Translations under genes and position numbers: made by a program
In this document: positions 14,104-53,089 of the stretch, piece after piece
How the letters are laid out: each line of letters opens with the position of its first letter
Position numbering within the stretch: position 1 is the first letter of the stretch
The notes under the pieces: generated by a model
What the model was told of the DNA's origin: nothing
The model's database searches: none
What the model saw: the letters and a program-made list of their open reading frames with translations, nothing else
Origin: Halichondria panicea
Taxonomy: Eukaryota; Porifera; Demospongiae; Suberitida; Halichondriidae
Direction: 5' to 3'
DNA: 64,000 bases
Assembly: GCF_963675165.1 (NCBI RefSeq)
Contig: NC_087377.1
Span: 8,077,122-8,141,121 of the forward strand

Positions 14104-15938
14104 TACTGTGTCAGTTGGTCTTCGCATTTTTTGGACTTTTATAAGGATTTTTATTAGAATAATAGGCACATTTTTCAAGATTATAATAATGGGTGAAAAA
14201 AAAGCATAGGGCCTACCTAAATGCTCCGTTCACGCTAAATTATATGTTCGCATTAATAAAAACTCATGAAAAATTAATGTACTACCATCTATACTGCATA
14301 CATGTTGGCTAGTGTGGTGGCATAATCAGGGTCAGAATATTACTGAGGTAGCCTCGGAAATTATAGCAATGAACATAATAGGCAATTCAGGGAAACACCA
14401 GCTGCAAGGTAGCTAGAGGTTGGTAGATTATGCTCGAGATAACTATTATGCTATTCTTTTGTGCTCCCTATTATTCTTTTCAAATTCTTTTCTATTATTC
14501 CCACATTATTCCTCCAAAGCACAACATAGGCCCCATGTCGTGACCATCAAACTAATTGCCACGTGACTAATTGCCACGTGACTATCTATTAACACTATAG
14601 CATTTCAAGGAGATAATTAACCACCAGTAATTCCAATTGTTGTTTATACACTGACCTGTATATCTATAAATGTACCTATTATGCCAGCATAATTCTCACC
14701 CAAAAAATGTACCTATAATATAGGTACATTTTTAATTTTGTGCTCAAAATTATGCTAGCCAACCCCTACTGCAAGGTGTTAGCAAAGAGCTCGATCGTAC
14801 GCGGCAAATATGCTCGACAGGCAAAAGCTTAGAGAAAGTGGCAATAAAAGTAGCAGAAAGAAATTTCTGAGCATAACTATAATTATTAATTTGCCTTTTT
14901 GGAAAAGTTCCCCATTCTAACAATATACGTTTATATCAATGATCATTTGTACATGATGCTGACACTTTCAACCCATTATACCCACAGGAGTTGCTGGTCA
15001 TGTCGCTGCCTTATTGTGCTGCTGTGATGAACTACATATAAAAGCAAGATCATCAAAGGATGTCGTGGTGTGTGCATGTAGTTAAAGCCTATTGGGAGTA
15101 AGATCGCACAATGGACTTGTGGGTATAATGCTAGGACTGTACATTCGATGATGATTAAACATCTTCACAGTGTTCATGAAATGACCCCTGGCACGCCAGT
15201 ATTCTCAATGAGAACCATGCACTGCTTCCAAAGACCCTGACAGCTCTACATATCTAGAATCATCTGACAATTTCCTGATGATCTATTAGAAACTGATCTG
15301 CATGCATGATTGTGATTGACTTTAGAGTGTCCGGAGGGAGGGAGCCATCACCAGAGAGACACTACCATCCTCTTCACCACCTCACTGAACTCAGGCTGTG
15401 GGGGGGGGGGGGAGGGGTGAAAGAAGCTATAGGCAGTAGGTGTGTGGTGGTATGCATGTAGTGTCAAGTTATATAGCAGTATACAGTTGTGGCTATAATC
15501 TGACAATTTCCTGATGATCTATTAGAAACTGATCTTATGATTATATATAGGATGGGGGGTACGTTTATTTCAATGGTATCTATAATAATTATTTAATCTA
15601 TAATTATAATTACATGTAATTTCGTGCAGCTGATTGCCGAACTCTGGAGGCACCTAAGAAAGGAAAACAGCCCCCAGATGCTGATCTTTGGACAAATTCA
15701 TTCAGAAAATATTGGAATGTGCCAAACCAGTACCAGTAGAGCATCCAAGAAATTGTTGGGGAAATTGGACAGTTGCAGGTATAATATTATTCATAGGGGC
15801 ATTTGTGCTTGAGTATTGCTAAGAAAATAGTCGACATTGTGACAACTGTACAAACGATGAAACCTGCATGTCATTATCTTATGGAGTGCCATTCAGGTCA
15901 AAAATGCATGACAGAATCATCAATGGATGGCAGGTCAA

Positions 15939-16054
15939 TCATCGATCATTGCCAATCGGTTTGTCGATCACACCAATCGGTTCATCGATCATTTCCAATC
16001 GGTTTGTCGATCACACCAATCGGTTCATCGATCATTTCCAATCGGTTTGTCGAT
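15939..16054 (+). repeat. Minisatellite, 'caatcggtttgtcgatcacac' type
   Basis: About five alternating copies of a 19-22-bp unit (caatcggtttgtcgatca or caatcggttcatcgatca) are present. The same units occur in reverse orientation at 18361-18495, so this array forms one arm of the inverted structure. Confidence 0.8.
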
Positions 16055-16216
16055 CGAGCTTTGCCTCTATGCTTGACCCTTGACCTGAGCTCTCAACCTT
16101 CACCTTGACACTACCGTAAGATCTCGATTTAAAGCAACACTTTTTAATAATTACGAAGCCAGGGGTCGCATCTTTTGGAGGTTGAAAAATTATATTGAAG
16201 TCCTGGTGTCGCATAT

Positions 16217-17269
16217 ATGGGTCCATTGCTATTTTTGGTTTTTATAAATGATTTACCTAACTCTGCCCTGTGTTCTTTTATTCATTTGTTTGCTGACGAC
16301 ACAAAGTGTTCAAAACAAGTCATATGTTGGAACGATGTCTCTAACTTGCAGGAAGACTTGGATCGTCTGTATAGCTGGAGTATGAAAATTAATGGTCTCT
16401 CTTCTTCAACGATTCAAAGTGTATTAGCATGTCTTTTTCCTCTTCTCAACCATCCATCAACTCTTCCTACCACATCGCTGGTAATAGTGTTAAACAACTA
16501 AACTTCCATAGAGATCTAGGAATTATATTGCAAGAGAACTTGAAATGGGATCATCACTACGACTCATATCAGCAATAGCTTACCAGAAACTTGGTTTAAT
16601 TAAGAGAACATTTTCTACCTCAAACTCCATCTAACAACTGTACCTCTCTCTAGTAAGGTCCCAGCTCTCCTATGGCGACCAATTATGGCGACCAATGCTC
16701 ATTAAGCATAATTATTGTTTCACTTGAAAAGATTCAACGCAGGGCAACTAAATTCACAGTAGGATACAACTCTAACCTGTCATAATTATAAAGAGAGGCT
16801 CATTCAATTGAACCTACTTCCACTGATGTATCATTTGGAGCTATTGGATGTTGTATTTTTTGTGACATCTTTCAAAAACCTATCAAATCGTTTTGATATC
16901 AGTAAGTATGTCTCTATCTCTACAGGGAAAACTAGGAGCTCTGACAAAACCACCATCAAACATAATTTTGCCAGTTCAAGTAAACACCATCACTTCTATT
17001 TTAACAGGATATCCAGATTATGCAACTATTTACCACAATCTGAAACAATTCTTCTGGTCTCAAACTTTGACTCGGAAAACCCTTGTTCATATCATTTGAA
17101 ATGTCCTTGCATTCTTAAGCGTTAGCTAGTTAATATAATAGTTTTGGTAACCTGTTCAATCAGGATTGCCCTCAGCATCACTTATTTTATGTAATCATAT
17201 CAAAATCTATCACTGTACATGTGTATGTCTATTGCTGTAAAATCATATTGATTGATTGATTGATTGATT
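16217..17269 (+). mobile_element. 5'-truncated non-LTR retrotransposon (LINE), reverse transcriptase remnant
   Basis: The sequence starts inside the reverse transcriptase domain: GPLLFLVFINDLP then FADDTK, the catalytic YADD/FADD-type motif. It continues with frame breaks through the thumb region (LLPLMYHLELLDVVFFVTSF at 16808 onward). It ends in an (attg)n tail at 17247-17269, as in LINEs that use short tandem tails rather than poly(A). A related copy lies at 57090-57740. Pseudogenic. Confidence 0.8.
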
Positions 17270-17274
17270 TAGAG

Positions 17275-17491
17275 GGTCGCATCTACGAAATTTTCGAGTG
17301 GCTTAATTTTCGTGGATTTCGTGGGTTAGCAATCATACACGAAAATTAAGTCCACGAAAATCGTTCTTTACCTGCTATAACGTGCAAGACTTAAAGGCAT
17401 GGCTTCCGGTAAGCAGTCATTGCGCGAACATTGTGCTTTTAGAGGCCATTCCACGAAATATAAGTTCCTCGAAAATTTTACGCTATACGGT
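17275..17491. mobile_element. MITE family C copy nested in MITE A
   Basis: The left part (tacgaaattttcgagtggct) and right part (ctcgaaaattttacgctatacggta) match the inverted ends of the 13893-14103 element. The left terminus is slightly truncated or diverged. It lies inside the interrupted MITE A just after the LINE tail. Confidence 0.6.
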
Positions 17492-17895
17492 AATTGGTTT
17501 ACAGAGTCTACTTGCCTCGATTTCAGGCCGCTTAAAAACACTGATTTCCAGTGGGCTACAATCGAGGCTAGGGAGTGGCTACATTTACCTCTATTTAGAA
17601 CGCGACATTAAAAAATAATTGTCAACGCAGCTGTCGCTACTTTTAGAGGTCAGAAAATTGCTGAAGCTCCTGGGTGTCGCATATTTGGAGGGTCGCCTTA
17701 AATCGAGGTCTTACGGTATATATATTAGACTGGAACTCGACTACTTACGTATTACGTATCTATAGCTAGCTATTAAAGATCAAGACAGAAGTGAAGCTCG
17801 AAGAGGGCCAGTCGTATTATGAATTCTGATGTTTCCCAAGTTGCATGCCCTCTCTTCTAGATCTTTTATACCCCATGGTATTTGTGTTTATGCAG

Positions 17896-18090
17896 GAAGT
17901 GATGTCGTCCCTTTTGGGGTTAGACTTGTCGCCTGTACTCGCATTCTGGCCAAAAGGAATGTTCCCCACATCATCAACCTGTGCACTCCACCTTACACTA
18001 CCAACACAGTACCACAACCAGCCAGCTCTTTTCAAAGAAAAATGCTGTATGCATGGCCTCAAGAACCATAGAGGTTTTGGGAAGCGCTAA
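17896..18090 (+). pseudogene. HECT-domain C-terminal exon fragment
   Basis: An acceptor (gtttatgcag, ending 17895) opens a 64-codon frame that ends in TAA. The sequence MFPTSSTCALHLTLPTQ, then a Phe/Lys-rich helix and the terminal GFGKR, follows the pattern of the HECT E3 ligase C-lobe: (L/M)PTxxTC with the catalytic Cys, then a final hydrophobic residue near a GFG motif. No upstream HECT exons are seen next to it. It lies inside the inverted-repeat structure, so capture by or remnant of a mobile element is likely. A longer HECT-like piece is at 50421-51088. Confidence 0.5.
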
Positions 18091-18531
18091 GTGTTGCTCA
18101 TAACTCATAACTCTGTAAACACACTCTCATTTATGCCAGAACATGTTTTCTGTATTTAACCTCTTTGGACCATGTTTTCATGAACATGCATGCGTGTTAT
18201 CATGTAATTTGCGTCACTTATTCATCCAGTATTGTCTCACACTGTTTTCTGAAGCTGTATTCCAACATTATATATCTTTCATTTCAATTGACATGTGCAC
18301 ATACAATTTAATACAAGTTAAGTGTTTCTAGCGAAACTGTAAAGTTGAAAGGTCAAGGGTCAAACCGATTGGTGTGGTGAACAATAAACCGATTGGAAAT
18401 GATTGACAAACCAATTGATGTGATCGACAAACCGATTGGCAATGATCGACAAACCGATTGATGTGATCGACAAACCGATTGGTAATGATCGATGATTCTG
18501 TCATGCATTTTTGACTTGAATGGCGCTCCAT

Positions 18532-45993: not shown

Positions 45994-46559
45994 GAGGTAT
46001 AATTATAATTATGGTTTTTACATTCAGGTCGAAAAGAATTGTGTCTGAATAAAGCATACACGTGGCTAGCTCAAAAGAAACCGGAATCAATACAGTCAGC
46101 GTGTAAGTGATTACATTATGAAACTAGTGTTCAAGCTGGCGCTGTGCTAATGCCTCTCGCCATGTTTTTGCTTTCGCTGAAAAGTATTAGAGTGTTATAT
46201 TAGTTTCTATAATGAATTTTATATTAAAGTTAGCTTATCTATATAAAGTCACTGAGAAGAAAATACTTATTTACATGCATCTATTGTTGTATTATGTGGC
46301 TTACCAGGACCTCAAGAAAGAAGAAAATTGATCCTTCCAGGATCTGTGTAGTTGCAGTGTATATAATATCTAAGAAGAAAAGACCTGTGTACATGCATAT
46401 TGTTATCTATATTGTTATATGGTAGTGTTTTGTGGCTTACCAGGCCTTCAAGACAAAGATGATTCTGCCAGGAAGTCTTGGATACAGAGGTTTTCAGGTT
46501 CCTTGAGAAACTATCATGTGCGCTTGCGCAAAACATTGAACTATGTACTCTGGTTTGCT

Positions 46560-46850
46560 GTGTCAGCACAGCTGCAAGATCATCTGATCATGGAACCAGG
46601 ACAGCCTTTGTGTTCACTTTCGCTTGCTGTAGCTGCCACTGGGCGCCGAGTGACTATTAATAGTGGATCACAGAAACAAGTATCAAAGAACGGTGGTGGG
46701 TGCGTGTTAATTACACCATTAAGTAAAGGTACATATTCAATGCCAAATGTGCCTACTGCAAAACTCAATACAACATTACAAGGAGCTTCCCCACTTCTAT
46801 CCAAAGTTTTGGTGAAAGTTGCATCAAAAGATGGGCCTATAAGCTCCTAA
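46560..46850 (+). CDS. Open frame upstream of the PB1-like ORF within the element
   Basis: A frame open from 46419 crosses the left terminal repeat. From Met 46590 it reads PGQPLCSLSLAVAATGRRVT, then SKNGGGCVLITPLSKGTYSM and SPLLSKVLVKVASKDG. Before the LINE insertion it would have closed soon after position 46833. It may be a leader ORF, part of the 5' UTR of the PB1-like ORF, or chance. Confidence 0.3.
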   Translation: MSAQLQDHLIMEPGQPLCSLSLAVAATGRRVTINSGSQKQVSKNGGGCVLITPLSKGTYSMPNVPTAKLNTTLQGASPLLSKVLVKVASKDGPISS

Positions 46851-47436
46851 CCCAAACTTGAATACTGCGCCGCAGTATGGGACCCCCATCAATCAACACT
46901 CACCAAGAAACTGGAGAACACCCAATCATTTGCCTGCAAAATCATAACCAAAGAATGGAAATCTGACTATACTTCTCTACTTAACAAACTCCAACTCAAA
47001 TCTCTTAAAGACCGCAGGAATATCCAAAAACTTAAAGTATGCTTCAAAATCATCAACAACAAATCCTGTATTCCTCCCTCTGTCTTCTCACCCCACCCAT
47101 CCCCTTCCCCCCGTCATCCGCACAGCCAAATACTCTTTATACCACATGTGGGCACCTCATCCCACAAACATTCCTTTTTTCTGGATGTAATACCAAAATG
47201 GAATTCTTTACCACCAGAAGTTATCAACAGCTCCTCTGATTCATCATTTAAATCGAACCTCAGTAGCTTTTTGTGTAATAATTATTATAATTAGCCGTAG
47301 CTCCTGTTTTATTTCTCTGTTTTTGTGTTGTCCAGGGGAAGTCTTCACACTAGCCATCTGAGCTACCTGATCTACCCTTATGCACACCTTGGTTTTGCAT
47401 AAAAATTTCTTAAATAAAAAAAAAAAAAAAAAAAAA
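46834..47436 (+). mobile_element. 5'-truncated LINE with poly(A) tail
   Basis: It encodes the C-terminal end of a LINE reverse transcriptase: PKLEYCAAVWDPH, then KSLKDRRNIQKLKVCFKIIN, and IPKWNSLPPEVINS. It ends with 21 A residues (47416-47436). The sequence aaaagatg occurs just before it (46826-46833) and at its 3' end (47433-47440), fitting a short target duplication that overlaps the poly(A). It differs from the (attg)n-tailed LINE at 16217. Confidence 0.85.
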
Positions 47437-47437
47437 G

Positions 47438-48163
47438 ATGTTCACTCTTCGTGATTTAGATATTACTACAATTCTCACATGTGAGAACTTAAAAGATGCC
47501 ATTAAGAGACAGTTAACTGATGACATTGTTGATAGTGACTTCGATGTTGGATATGTGGAGGGTTCAAGTGTTGTGCGGATTAGAAATAGGCGTGATCTGG
47601 AGGAGGTGTGGTCCTGTATTGCAAAAAGTAAAGGCAAAGTAATGCTGTGGTGTGATGGCTTAAGCAACACCAAAGAGAGTCGCAAGCGTCCTCGAAGTGA
47701 TGGCGTATCTGTGGTTAATACAAAGAAAAAAGTACCTGACAAGGCTGACAAGGAACAGAAAGTTCAGCAACTGGTCGACTCATTGAAAGAAAAGCACCTT
47801 AGTGATTATACACCTATGCAATTTCGTATATGGGCCGAAATGGTAGCAAGTGGTATGTATTGTAGTATGGACAATCCGCCTAACACCACAATGTTCACTC
47901 GTGCTGGCAGCGGCACTCCATCTCGAAATGTGCCAGTTGCTCGGGCTCTCTCTGATGCGGCAACTGTGATTGCTACAGCTTTGTCTCCTACCAGTTCGAC
48001 ACATATTTCAAGCAATAGCCCAGCAAAAGTTATAGAAAGTAGGTCGAAGCTATACAGGCAGTTGAATGAACTACAAAATCTAAAGCAAAGCGGGGTGTTG
48101 ACTGACGAGGAATATTGTGAAGAGAAGGGTACAATCATGAAGTTACTTCAACAACTAAAGTGA
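47438..48163 (+). CDS. Transposon-borne PB1-like accessory protein (ORF1)
   Basis: An intact 241-aa frame. Residues 1-75 form a ubiquitin-like/PB1-like fold candidate: MFTLRDLDITTILTCENLKD, DDIVDSDFDVGYVEGSSVVR and KVMLWCDGL. A basic linker (KRPRSDGV...TKKKVPDK) follows. A middle conserved-looking block LSDYTPMQFRIWAEMVASGM precedes a Ser/Pro-rich stretch and a C-terminal coiled coil (RQLNELQNLKQSGVLTDEEY...MKLLQQLK). PB1-type domains mediate oligomerisation, so a structural or transposase-partner role is plausible but unproven. The ATG is the 3' copy of the LINE target duplication, so the original promoter and 5' UTR are now separated by 604 bp of LINE. Confidence 0.75.
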   Translation: MFTLRDLDITTILTCENLKDAIKRQLTDDIVDSDFDVGYVEGSSVVRIRNRRDLEEVWSCIAKSKGKVMLWCDGLSNTKESRKRPRSDGVSVVNTKKKVPDKADKEQKVQQLVDSLKEKHLSDYTPMQFRIWAEMVASGMYCSMDNPPNTTMFTRAGSGTPSRNVPVARALSDAATVIATALSPTSSTHISSNSPAKVIESRSKLYRQLNELQNLKQSGVLTDEEYCEEKGTIMKLLQQLK

Positions 48164-48233
48164 CATAATATTGATTAAACTGACAATTTTTGGTGTGCTG
48201 TGCATAGTTATTATTATACGTTGTGATAATGTT

Positions 48234-49202
48234 TTAGTCAATGTATCCACTATGAGAGATATAAGAAAGGCAGTCTTGTTTGGTTACCATACTAAATGCC
48301 ATACTTAAGAGTACTCTTGAGGCACTGCATGATTGAAATACTCCATCGTTTTGCTTCATAATTGATTTCACTTGACTGAAAACCTCTTCGCAAGGATTCA
48401 AATCAGGTGAGTATGGAGGGAGAAAAAGCAGTCGTGCTCCTTCTTGGTTTTCAATTAAATCCATAACACCCTCCACATGGTGTATGGAGGCATTGTCCAT
48501 AATCACAACTGAATGGGGATTTACCCAATTGAATGGATTTAGAATTGGAAGAACACAATCTCTCAAAAACTGCTCAAACCTTCCACCATCCACAGTCCCT
48601 TCAAAGAAGCATACATCATGTATTCCATCAAGGGACAGTACAGGAATTGCTGAGTAGCGTGTTCCACATGCTAGCAGCCTATGGTCTCTGGGCGTCATAC
48701 CTCTTATACTGTATGCCCATTTTCGTACACAATTTCTTCTATCACACCCTGTCTCATCTAGCCATATGAGCATTCTTGGATCATAGGTTGTAACTTCAGC
48801 CATAAACTTAGCACGTAATTCATCATTACGCCGTATATGAATGTGTTGAATAACTTGCCGTGTACAGTTCATGAACTTCAGTGTTCGACAGATGGTTGCA
48901 ACACTTACAGTAACGCCAAACATTGTAACAAGTTTTGCTTGAATTTCATGTAAGTATATGCCAGTGTTCTCCAAAATGATTCGTAGAAGTACAAGCTGTT
49001 CAAAATCTCCGAGTAGTTTCTGAGGACCATGTGTTGAAACTCTTGGCGCTACATCACCAGTTTGCTCAAAAGCATTAATATATCTATAGACAGTGCTCTC
49101 AGAAAGGCTGACTTGGTGTGATATGTCTTTACAATTCAAGTGATGAGCAAGATGGAGCCAAATTACTCTCCAACAAAGGTCCAACGAGTATGGAATCGGC
49201 AT
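48234..49202 (-). CDS. Tc1/mariner-IS630 transposase, DD35E
   Basis: Intact 322-aa frame from ATG 49202. The N-terminal region has two helix-turn-helix-like segments (CKDISHQVSLSESTVYRYIN near residues 24-43, and VTVSVATICRTLK near 97-109) that would bind the terminal repeats. The DDE_3 catalytic core shows IWLDETG (Asp149), VVIMDNASIHH (Asp236) and PPYSPDLNPCEEVF (Glu272). By my count 35 residues separate the second Asp from the Glu, against 34 in classical Tc1. No stops or frame breaks are seen, so it may be active. It cuts and pastes at TA dinucleotides. Confidence 0.9.
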   Translation of the reverse strand: MPIPYSLDLCWRVIWLHLAHHLNCKDISHQVSLSESTVYRYINAFEQTGDVAPRVSTHGPQKLLGDFEQLVLLRIILENTGIYLHEIQAKLVTMFGVTVSVATICRTLKFMNCTRQVIQHIHIRRNDELRAKFMAEVTTYDPRMLIWLDETGCDRRNCVRKWAYSIRGMTPRDHRLLACGTRYSAIPVLSLDGIHDVCFFEGTVDGGRFEQFLRDCVLPILNPFNWVNPHSVVIMDNASIHHVEGVMDLIENQEGARLLFLPPYSPDLNPCEEVFSQVKSIMKQNDGVFQSCSASRVLLSMAFSMVTKQDCLSYISHSGYID

Positions 49203-49876
49203 CTTAGTTTTTGAATTTCGCGAGTTTATTGATTGAAGTAGCCGGGCGGAGTCTATAGCTATTGTGCATTGCGCATGCTCTATTTATTTCACAGTCACTA
49301 TAGTCAACCAACCTGAAAACCTCTGTATTATTTCTCACACATGGGGAATGAGCGCGCATGCGCATTACATCCACAGGAATAATTAAAGGGTGTGTCCAAA
49401 GAGATCAATTTTCACAAATGGCTACTGCTAGCTAGCTGTTTTAACAGATATTTTCTGAGTATTGTAGCTAACAAAAAGCTAGCGCTTTAGTGCAAGGCTA
49501 ACTCATATGTTGAATAGAAAGTTTGTGCGGACAGATGATGCTATGAAAGATTCTGAAGAGACTGCAACAGCCTTCAATGTGAGTCAAACTAGCCATAACT
49601 CGAGAAAGAAGCTTTAGTTTGCTAATCCACGAATCAAAATCCAAGAGAACGTGGCTAGAAGCCTATAGAAGCTGTTAGCTTTCGTCGCATTGCAACCGTT
49701 GAGCAGTTACAGCTGGAACAGACACACACACAGACACAGTCAGCTTTACCTTATCCCTCATGCGGCTACGCCTCGAGGCATAATTAACAATGCTACATGT
49801 GATTAACAGAAAATTAATCTATCAGTTAATTGTGTGGGCTGTGAAAGAGTTTAAATTATGGCTATATCCAGATACT

Positions 49877-51088: not shown

Positions 51089-51218
51089 GTAATTCAATGC
51101 AAACTCATAAAAAAGTGGAACCTCCGCAACCACACGACGCGTTGCTAGGGAAGTTGCATTCGTATCTCTTCCCCTAGAGGCATATATCACACACTGAACA
51201 TTTCTACTATATAGTATA

Positions 51219-52529
51219 GCCTCGATCCCAGGCCGATCCGTCTCTAATTGAACGCTAGGTCGCCTCCTCAGCCTGGTATTGATTGTATCTGGGCGTGACC
51301 GGAAACTGGTAAGTATCAGCTATGTACTGTAAAATCTTCAGTTCATCACAGTTGGCTAAAAATACAGCGATATAATGATATAATGACACTAGAAATTAAT
51401 ACTGTGCACACCAGTACTGCGTCCATAATAAATGCAGATGTTTAGAAGCGAAGATCTCAAACAAGAGCTTCCAGAAAGACTTAATAATTACTGCGCCTTC
51501 AGATGGCATAACAAAGATTGTGTGTTCACAGTGCATCAAGAGACAGTAGAATCCTGACGTCACTGGTCAGGATAGCAACCACAAGTGTTGAAAGAGCCAT
51601 TCCACGTCAGTAGTTTTAGTGCAGGTAGTTCTATAAGATCGGACCCTTGGGAAGGACACGAGTGGCACTGGGGCATCCTCTTTCAATGAGTTCACACCCA
51701 TCAGCTAGGAGGAGTACGACGGGGGTTGGAGGGGAAGGTTCCATTTTGCTCCTGTATACAAATTAGTATGAACTTAAATTCACCATTCCACTATACATTT
51801 TGTAACTCACAGTGATGGTCCACACAAAACTAGCCACGATCCCAGGCCGCACTTCCTTGAAGGCCGGTGAAGGAGGCTATCACAACACCAGTGCCAGTGC
51901 CGTAATGTCATATCTTGATCCAGATACCAAGGATTGGGCTATAGGCTATAGTGTACAATTTCCAATGATGAAAGGGTATTATTGATTTATATCGCTCACC
52001 TTGACAATACATCCCAGGCCCAGCCACTTGTGGACACCCCTGAGCATAGTATACAAGAGATCGATGGCCAGAGTCTGAGGATAGACTCTACCAAGTGTAT
52101 CTGGCAATCAATGGTCTAATCAAGCGCTTGTATTAAATTGTGTAGTCAATCAAAAGTAGCCACTGATAGCAGAAACTTGAGAACCTAGATCTGTTCTTTC
52201 ACAAGAGTGATGCTCCTTCTTCCTTGGCACAAGACAGCTCCTCACACTCTAGCTAGCTAAGCCTATATCTATGACAAACTAAACGAATAGACCTATGACA
52301 CGGAGTTCTTTGTGATTTAACGGTGATTTTACGGAGTAAGTATGCTTACATACACTATTAGTGTTTCTATTCGCTCCACCTTGCTCAGGTATTCGCTCTT
52401 TTTTAGTGAATACCTGAGCAACCACAGCAACCACAGCACATGCCCAGATACACGCCCAGATACAATCAATACCAGGCCGAGGAGGCGACCTAGCGTTCAA
52501 TTAGAGACGGATCGGCCTGGGATCGAGGC
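51219..52529. mobile_element. 1.31-kb element with about 90-bp terminal inverted repeats
   Basis: 51219-51300 and 52448-52529 are near-identical inverted copies (gcctcgatcccaggccgatc... to ...ggcctgggatcgaggc). Both ends are flanked by the 14-nt string tactatatagtata (51205-51218; 52530-52543), which reads as a long target duplication or a palindromic target. No transposase ORF is visible inside. Solo ends of the same family occur near 7935, 17509, 52600-52697 and 61725. Confidence 0.8.
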
Positions 52530-53089
52530 TACTATATAGTATAGATGTCAATCACAAAAGGGAAGCAATTTTAGTAATCTCTGCTTTTGTTTCCGGTTCC
52601 TGCCATGCCCAGATACAATCAACAATACCAGGCCGTATTTTTCAACTTCATTCTATTAAAAAAAAATTCGGCCTGGGACCGAGGCTAGTATATAGTGCTG
52701 TGTGTGTAATGATTGTGTCCAACTAATTGTGTTGCCTGTAAGTTATTTTGTACACTACGTGCATGCATTAATTTAGATTTGATTGTAAGCTCTCGCCTGA
52801 GTTCCTTAATTCCACTGGCCTATGGACGCTGAAGGTACACGAATGGCGTCAATTTTTATGATACCCCCAGGGTTTCATCTAATGGGAGGGCATGCTTAGT
52901 TCCTCCCAAAATTTGGGACATTAGTACTGTCTATGAAGTGCAATATGTAACTATAATATCTACTGTGATGCCAGAGGAGGTCCGACATGCATGCACGAAT
53001 CACTATAAGTTCAGTGCATTGTGGTCATTGGGGTAACGTGATATGTTCAGGCCAAATGCACTGCAAATAATGGGCCTCCTTAAATTGAT

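Follow-up and report, generated by a model that had tools for sequence, protein, structure and literature searches.

Organization of the element in the window

The window, i.e., the whole stretch of DNA analysed here, comprises 64,000 nucleotides of Halichondria panicea contig NC_087377.1 (positions 8,077,122–8,141,121, forward strand). At 46485–49325 it contains a Tc1/mariner-type element, in which a transposase gene and a second open reading frame (ORF), designated ORF1, converge between terminal inverted repeats (TIRs). The following features were found:

46483–46484 (no strand): TA target duplication, left, read from the sequence; TA-flanked inverted-repeat pairs in 29/44 fetched loci
46485–46500 (+): left TIR, 16 bp, matching the right end perfectly
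46590–46850 (+): upstream fragment of ORF1, from ATG to a stop within the insert; frame unbroken in L002, a sister copy that does not have the insert
46847–47436 (+): 3′ fragment with poly(A), like that of a long interspersed nuclear element (LINE), within ORF1; no counterpart in L002
47438–48163 (+): downstream part of ORF1, with the remaining PB1-like region, a basic linker, an LRxWA/DxPP motif and a SHOCT-like C-terminus
48234–49202 (−): DDE_3 transposase, 322 aa, helix-turn-helix (HTH) plus DD35E
49310–49325 (−): right TIR, 16 bp, matching the left end perfectly
49326–49327 (no strand): TA target duplication, right, read from the sequence

The left end reads CAGAGGTTTTCAGGTT and the right end is its exact complement, each bordered on the outside by TA, as the original prediction had described for perfect 16-bp inverted repeats. 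The 18-mer formed by TIR and TA was found without mismatches 21 times among the matches listed in the genome searched (G000; 131 Mb, 39 contigs), the one genome from which all family counts were obtained. With up to three mismatches it occurred 306 times in forward and 301 times in reverse orientation, compared with 57 and 58 for the control pattern read backwards. The transposase ORF was shown to be free of interruptions and to match Pfam DDE_3 (E-value 1.7e-28) and HTH_29 (E-value 2.8e-8) with a D2–E spacing of 35, in agreement with the uninterrupted DD35E transposase predicted. Separately, short-spaced repeat pairs differing by one base from the TIR, for example at C2:930358–930497 and C8:987406–987550, resemble miniature non-autonomous elements.

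A LINE-like insert interrupts ORF1 in the window copy

The alignment to L002 (contig C5) falls into two parts, of 377 bp at 96.0% identity and of 1894 bp at 98.5%, and about 590 bp between them are missing in L002. The window matches L002 up to position 46846, then carries the extra region of about 590 bp from 46847 with a terminal poly(A), and rejoins L002 just 5′ of the ATG at 47438; the 3′ border of the insert is imprecise by a few bases owing to the A run. A 558-bp part of the insert was found over its full length, at 100% identity and with equal top scores, at eight places in the genome, the window included, and two further places gave 100% after rounding. Being identical over 558 bp at eight places, the insert is recent and present in multiple copies. 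By our own reading of its translation and of the poly(A), made without a family search, it resembles the 3′ end of a retrotransposon of the type without long terminal repeats.

ORF1 of L002 forms one frame of 349 aa. Translation of the window from the ATG at 46590 gives an ORF1 fragment that runs into a stop at 46848–46850, within the insert. Since the insert is absent from L002, where the frame spans 349 aa, the 241-aa protein encoded at 47438–48163 is only the downstream part of ORF1. The convergent frame aimed at the transposase gene is thus open over 241 aa, as predicted, but it does not represent the whole protein, and the prediction that a PB1-like region forms the N-terminus of ORF1 did not hold: in the complete ORF1 this region is central, and the insert lies between its presumed strands 1 and 2. 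As judged from its sequence, the window copy is an element that kept an open transposase frame and lost its complete ORF1 to a recent LINE-like insertion.

ORF1 and the transposase form convergent pairs across the genome

Searching the genome with ORF1 gave 80 matches in 67 clusters, and searching with the transposase gave at least 127 matches in at least 89 clusters, lower bounds since 124 of 188 candidates were scored. Among the matches listed, ORF1 was present within 5 kb of 58/89 transposase clusters, and these pairs were convergent in 56 cases, on the same strand in one and divergent in one, which supports the convergent arrangement as a constant feature within this genome. Most complete copies were found to have ORF1: all 20 listed transposases that are free of internal stops and span 300 or more of the 322 query residues sit in convergent pairs. 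Nor is ORF1 found mainly outside such elements, as only 9/67 ORF1 clusters stand alone, without a transposase within 5 kb. Three of these nine places were fetched (L062–L064), and L064 contained a weak transposase remnant (E-value 5.9e-4).

From the 58 pairs, 44 loci were fetched, including the window, and iterated profiles detected both ORF1 and transposase in all 44. Each gene was contained in a single open frame over most of its profile in 12/44 loci, with the window copy counted; the ORF1 profile begins at the second strand, so this count leaves the N-terminus out. Besides the pairs, 31 clusters appeared to contain a transposase only. The iterated profile detected ORF1 remnants in 11 of 15 such loci fetched (the weakest in L055, E-value 4.5e-5), with no matches in reversed sequences used as a control.

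TA-flanked pairs of 20-bp inverted repeats with up to four mismatches were detected in 29/44 loci and not in the other 15. With up to two mismatches the count was 27/44, against 0/44 in each of 10 shuffles; with up to four, the shuffles gave 0–4. The terminal repeats vary between lineages, and the repeat pair of L023, which has a different start, is perhaps a separate repeat. D2–E spacing was 34–36 in 12 of 17 family transposases, the motif search having failed in the other five.

Two deletion derivatives of 1350 bp (L010:142–1491 and L011:159–1508) were identical at 1350/1350 positions, had different flanks and had lost most of the transposase. Identical copies with different flanks suggest that they were probably mobilised, after the deletion, by transposase from elsewhere. 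In both, the open frame of ORF1 extends from the PB1-like part onward without including the N-terminal part, so these copies were given no weight as evidence on ORF1.

A 12-bp TIR-like motif at 48376–48387, an exact recurrence of TIR sequence in the part of the transposase gene that encodes the catalytic Glu and its neighbours, was also considered, and a functional role for it was rejected. Motifs of this type (up to four mismatches to the 16-mer) were present in 7 of 14 loci scanned, all seven belonging to the clade of the window copy, and L010 has its deletion junction at another position.

Selection on ORF1 and co-inheritance with the transposase

Between subfamilies with 45–48% amino-acid identity in ORF1 (290–302 codons), the proportion of synonymous differences (pS) was 0.76–0.86 and that of nonsynonymous differences (pN) 0.37–0.38, whereas ORF1 evolving neutrally had been named as one of the outcomes that would speak against a role in the element. 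For the transposases of the same subfamilies pS was 0.75–0.83 and pN 0.22–0.27, and in both genes the third codon position varied most and the second least. Codons were aligned along the protein alignment, without a simulated control, and pS and pN are reported without a ratio because synonymous divergence was saturated in nearly all between-subfamily pairs. That the protein was retained while synonymous sites approached saturation shows long purifying selection on ORF1, weaker than that on the transposase. Among recent ORF1 copies the ratio of nonsynonymous to synonymous rates (dN/dS) ranged from 0.13 to 0.90, values that are noisy and uninformative because of the few changes.

Trees of ORF1 and transposase built for 26 of the 44 loci had 18/23 splits in common, with no conflict where both supports were at least 0.9. 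Distances for the two genes were correlated (0.95 for 26 loci; 0.80 for 13 non-redundant lineages), and 0/5000 permutations reached either value. These congruent trees and distances show that ORF1 travelled with its transposase, as expected of one mobile unit. Convergent and carried together, the two genes have been inherited as a pair through about 13 diverged lineages. Together, the architecture of 56/58 pairs, the selection between subfamilies and the co-inheritance support the proposed Tc1/mariner-type element with a conserved partner protein, and this result at the level of the family is stronger than a reading of the single window copy could show.

Anatomy of ORF1

An alignment of 18 ORF1 members (A1) showed a PB1-like region with an invariant GY, followed by a basic linker, an LRxWAxMI..G.H...D.PP motif in which W and PP are invariant, and finally a C-terminal stretch. 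For the PB1-like region of the original prediction, profile comparison with five PB1 sequences in hhalign gave a probability of 45% and a score of 26.0, above the best of 30 column shuffles (13.1) and other ORF1 regions (0.1 and 0.3). The PB1 family (PF00564) scored 14.9 bits in the window and 16.2 bits in L002, both under the Pfam cut-off of 23.6, and matched 4/18 members at E-values of up to 1; no PB1 chain was among the 60 matches listed in a profile search of PDB with A1, and ORF1 was not among the six matches listed when the whole genome was searched for the PB1 family. Type I PB1 domains have an acidic OPCA cluster and pair front to back, and type II domains have a basic first strand. 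Inspection of A1 by eye did not reveal the acidic cluster, which is why canonical PB1 chains are not predicted for ORF1, and showed frequent basic residues around the first strand of the PB1-like region. The region is PB1-like, and its homology to PB1 is only suggestive.

SHOCT (PF09851) matched 11/18 members at E-values of up to 1, with the best match in L034 (25.4 bits, E-value 1.1e-5) lying under the cut-off of 27. Among the 18 families listed for the 18 members at the same threshold, no Myb/SANT, YqaJ, zinc-finger or recombinase match was present. The basic motif K[KR]x[KR] was present in 10/11 ORF1 lineages, where shuffles predict 4.9 (5/2000 shuffles reached 10), and in 2/11 transposases, where 1.9 are predicted; it was located in the linker in most ORF1 lineages, the site listed for L029 lying further on. 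In some diverged lineages (L017, L024, L029, L034 and L037), an apparent intron acceptor was seen by eye ahead of the PB1-like part.

The profile search of PDB with A1 also returned three 8-oxoguanine glycosylase sequences (E-value 0.007 over 36 residues) and p53 chains (E-values of about 0.3–1.5), all judged to be chance matches, and PDB searches with single proteins gave nothing below an E-value of 0.5. Scans with single proteins found no relatives of L008 ORF1 or of the window transposase in viral contigs, nor of L017 ORF1 in contigs of prokaryotic genomes, and a tblastn search of phages with L017 ORF1 gave no match; such scans detect close relatives only and are uninformative on other animals. 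As an observation apart, a 78-aa frame of the genome resembles Par6 (E-value 1.8e-9), which points to an animal or a close relative as the likely source.

Different partner in a second Tc1-like lineage

A second Tc1-like lineage, at first taken as a control without ORF1, was reached via other DDE_3 places; it showed sub-threshold matches to HTH_Tnp_Tc3_2 and, in L053, a DD34E triad identified by eye. Place counts for this lineage were made by hand. A 373-aa ORF of L066 had 11 genome matches at nine places, seven of which adjoin a transposase of the second lineage, all seven in convergent orientation. Seen from the transposase side, 7/16 places have the partner, with one further match belonging to the main family; no partner was found at the other nine, including L053 and L065, whose transposase frames are long and open. 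With a partner at 7/16 places, the lineage is only partly two-gene and its partner not universal. Examples are as follows:

L066:1648–3552, L068:1590–3601 and L069:629–2661: second-lineage loci
C9:1639615, C1:8446021, C4:3277144 and C17:4119339: second-lineage places in the genome

The partners of L066, L068 and L069 are mutually homologous and are not recognised by the ORF1 profile. A 458-aa ORF of L067 was left out as a partner, being unrelated to the others by BLASTP. The partner contains proline-rich, coiled-coil and possibly BEN-like parts; the last 88 residues of L066 covered nearly the whole BEN model, but at an E-value of 0.2 and 12.3 bits against a cut-off of 23.2. The same comparison gave no match for the L069 partner, and a PDB profile search with the partner returned nothing. 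TA-flanked repeats were found in 3/10 second-lineage loci and were convincing only in L072.

Elsewhere in the window, long inverted repeats at 15937–18497 (119 nt, 89%) and 51203–52545 (95 nt, 93%) could bound further transposons.

Possible role of ORF1

On balance we lean towards a large and diverse two-gene family of IS630/Tc1/mariner (ITm) type in which ORF1 would import or scaffold the transposase. The transposase would bind the element ends and cut, while ORF1 would enter the nucleus via its basic linker, self-associate through the SHOCT-like C-terminal helices and contact the transposase or a host factor by its PB1-like and LRxWA/DxPP regions, and thereby import or scaffold the transposase. 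A role in import or scaffolding is preferred because the basic linker is enriched in ORF1 and not in the transposase, a weak reason. Having lost its own complete ORF1 to the insertion, the window copy would now rely on ORF1 from other copies.

Several observations weigh against such a role. No ORF1 was found in L048, L049, L053 and L058, four of the 15 transposase-only loci examined out of 31 (L053 belongs to another family), and ORF1 evolves faster than the transposase. No Pfam domain was above its cut-off in the 10 ORF1 proteins whose scores were inspected, and in L017 the basic motif is absent from ORF1 and present once in the transposase. Besides, a title cited in the reference list of PMC2874221 describes mariner transposase, when purified, as sufficient in vitro, so the partner need not be required.

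A rather unlikely alternative, although the one we would consider before the others, is that ORF1 is an anti-silencing or regulatory protein whose target is host chromatin or the element's transcription and which is dispensable for the transposition reaction itself. The same conservation and co-inheritance of ORF1 fit this role, and a basic linker suits a nuclear protein. BEN domains occur in chromatin factors, and the second Tc1-like lineage has a possibly BEN-like partner, but the BEN match of that partner is far under the cut-off and ORF1 itself has no recognised chromatin or DNA-binding domain. The latter result, obtained across 18 members without a match to Myb/SANT or another DNA-binding family, also speaks against a further reading that we consider improbable, in which ORF1 would serve the transposition complex as a subunit that binds DNA or pairs the ends, with a role like that of the second ORF of Harbinger-type elements. 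Linkage of ORF1 and transposase and their congruent trees agree with such a subunit, as does the DNA-binding second protein described for two-ORF elements of the PHIS group (PMC4482050); the transposase, however, already has HTH matches of its own for binding the ends.

That ORF1 is mere cargo, a captured host gene of no benefit to the element, is very hard to believe. ORF1 is without a known function, the capture of a PB1 exon by a plant Mutator-like element (MULE) is on record (PMC8616336), and part of ORF1 is retained in the 1350-bp derivatives, which lack most of the transposase and did move. Against this stand the long purifying selection, the constant convergent position and the congruent trees over about 13 lineages, and no close host relative was present among the genome matches of ORF1, for which three of nine stand-alone places were examined.

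A broader proposal than an ORF1 that imports or scaffolds its transposase, and one we regard as possible but somewhat doubtful, is an unrecognised two-component class of Tc1/mariner elements, in which at least two lineages would have independently gained non-homologous convergent partners (the PB1/SHOCT-like ORF1 and the coiled-coil, possibly BEN-like protein of the DD34E lineage), each partner being needed for efficient transposition via nuclear import, scaffolding or anti-silencing.

The textbook case of a transposon that relies on one protein is Tc1/mariner with its transposase. Where a diverse family retains a selected, co-inherited second protein, this suggests that a single protein does not always suffice in the host, and the role of the extra protein, be it import, scaffolding, repression or anti-silencing, becomes testable. 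The different partner in the same position in the second lineage hints at a repeated solution.

Comparison with known systems

Within the open literature, as covered by titles and the beginnings of abstracts, no Tc1/mariner element with a PB1, SHOCT or BEN partner was found; Repbase and subscription papers lie outside this range and may catalogue the family. An association of a PB1 domain with transposon-derived proteins is shared with the MULE-derived MUGB genes of plants, in which, according to PMC8616336, a transposase-derived gene gained a PB1 exon. In the family described here, by contrast, ORF1 is a separate convergent gene, and its PB1 identity is only suggestive.

Elements of the PHIS group (PIF/Harbinger, ISL2EU and relatives) are described as encoding a transposase and a second ORF with Myb/SANT or YqaJ, of uncertain role (PMC4482050). 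Our elements similarly combine a transposase with a second protein of uncertain role; they differ in the target site, which is TA here, in the DDE_3 transposase and in the unrelated ORF1 without a Myb/SANT or YqaJ match. Closer in transposase type are the ciliate Tec and TBE elements, reported to contain a Tc1/mariner-type transposase and further ORFs, three in all, encoding a zinc-finger protein or a site-specific recombinase (PMC7325037). In both cases a Tc1/mariner-type transposase is accompanied by an extra ORF, whereas two ORFs were followed here and neither has a zinc-finger or recombinase match.

A nuclear localization signal is given as a usual motif of Tc1/mariner transposases (PMC2874221); in the transposases analysed here, K[KR]x[KR] was no commoner than in shuffles. 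Compared with the single-gene form of ITm elements, the family shows the TA target site and flanks, the terminal inverted repeats, an HTH plus DDE_3 transposase and a D2–E spacing within about 31–39 (34–36 in the 12/17 transposases mentioned above). A transposase as the only gene, typical of ITm elements without strictly defining them, is not what was found: ORF1 accompanies 58/89 transposase clusters and left traces in 11/15 more, so that what sets these elements apart from the single-gene form is a further conserved gene that converges with the transposase.

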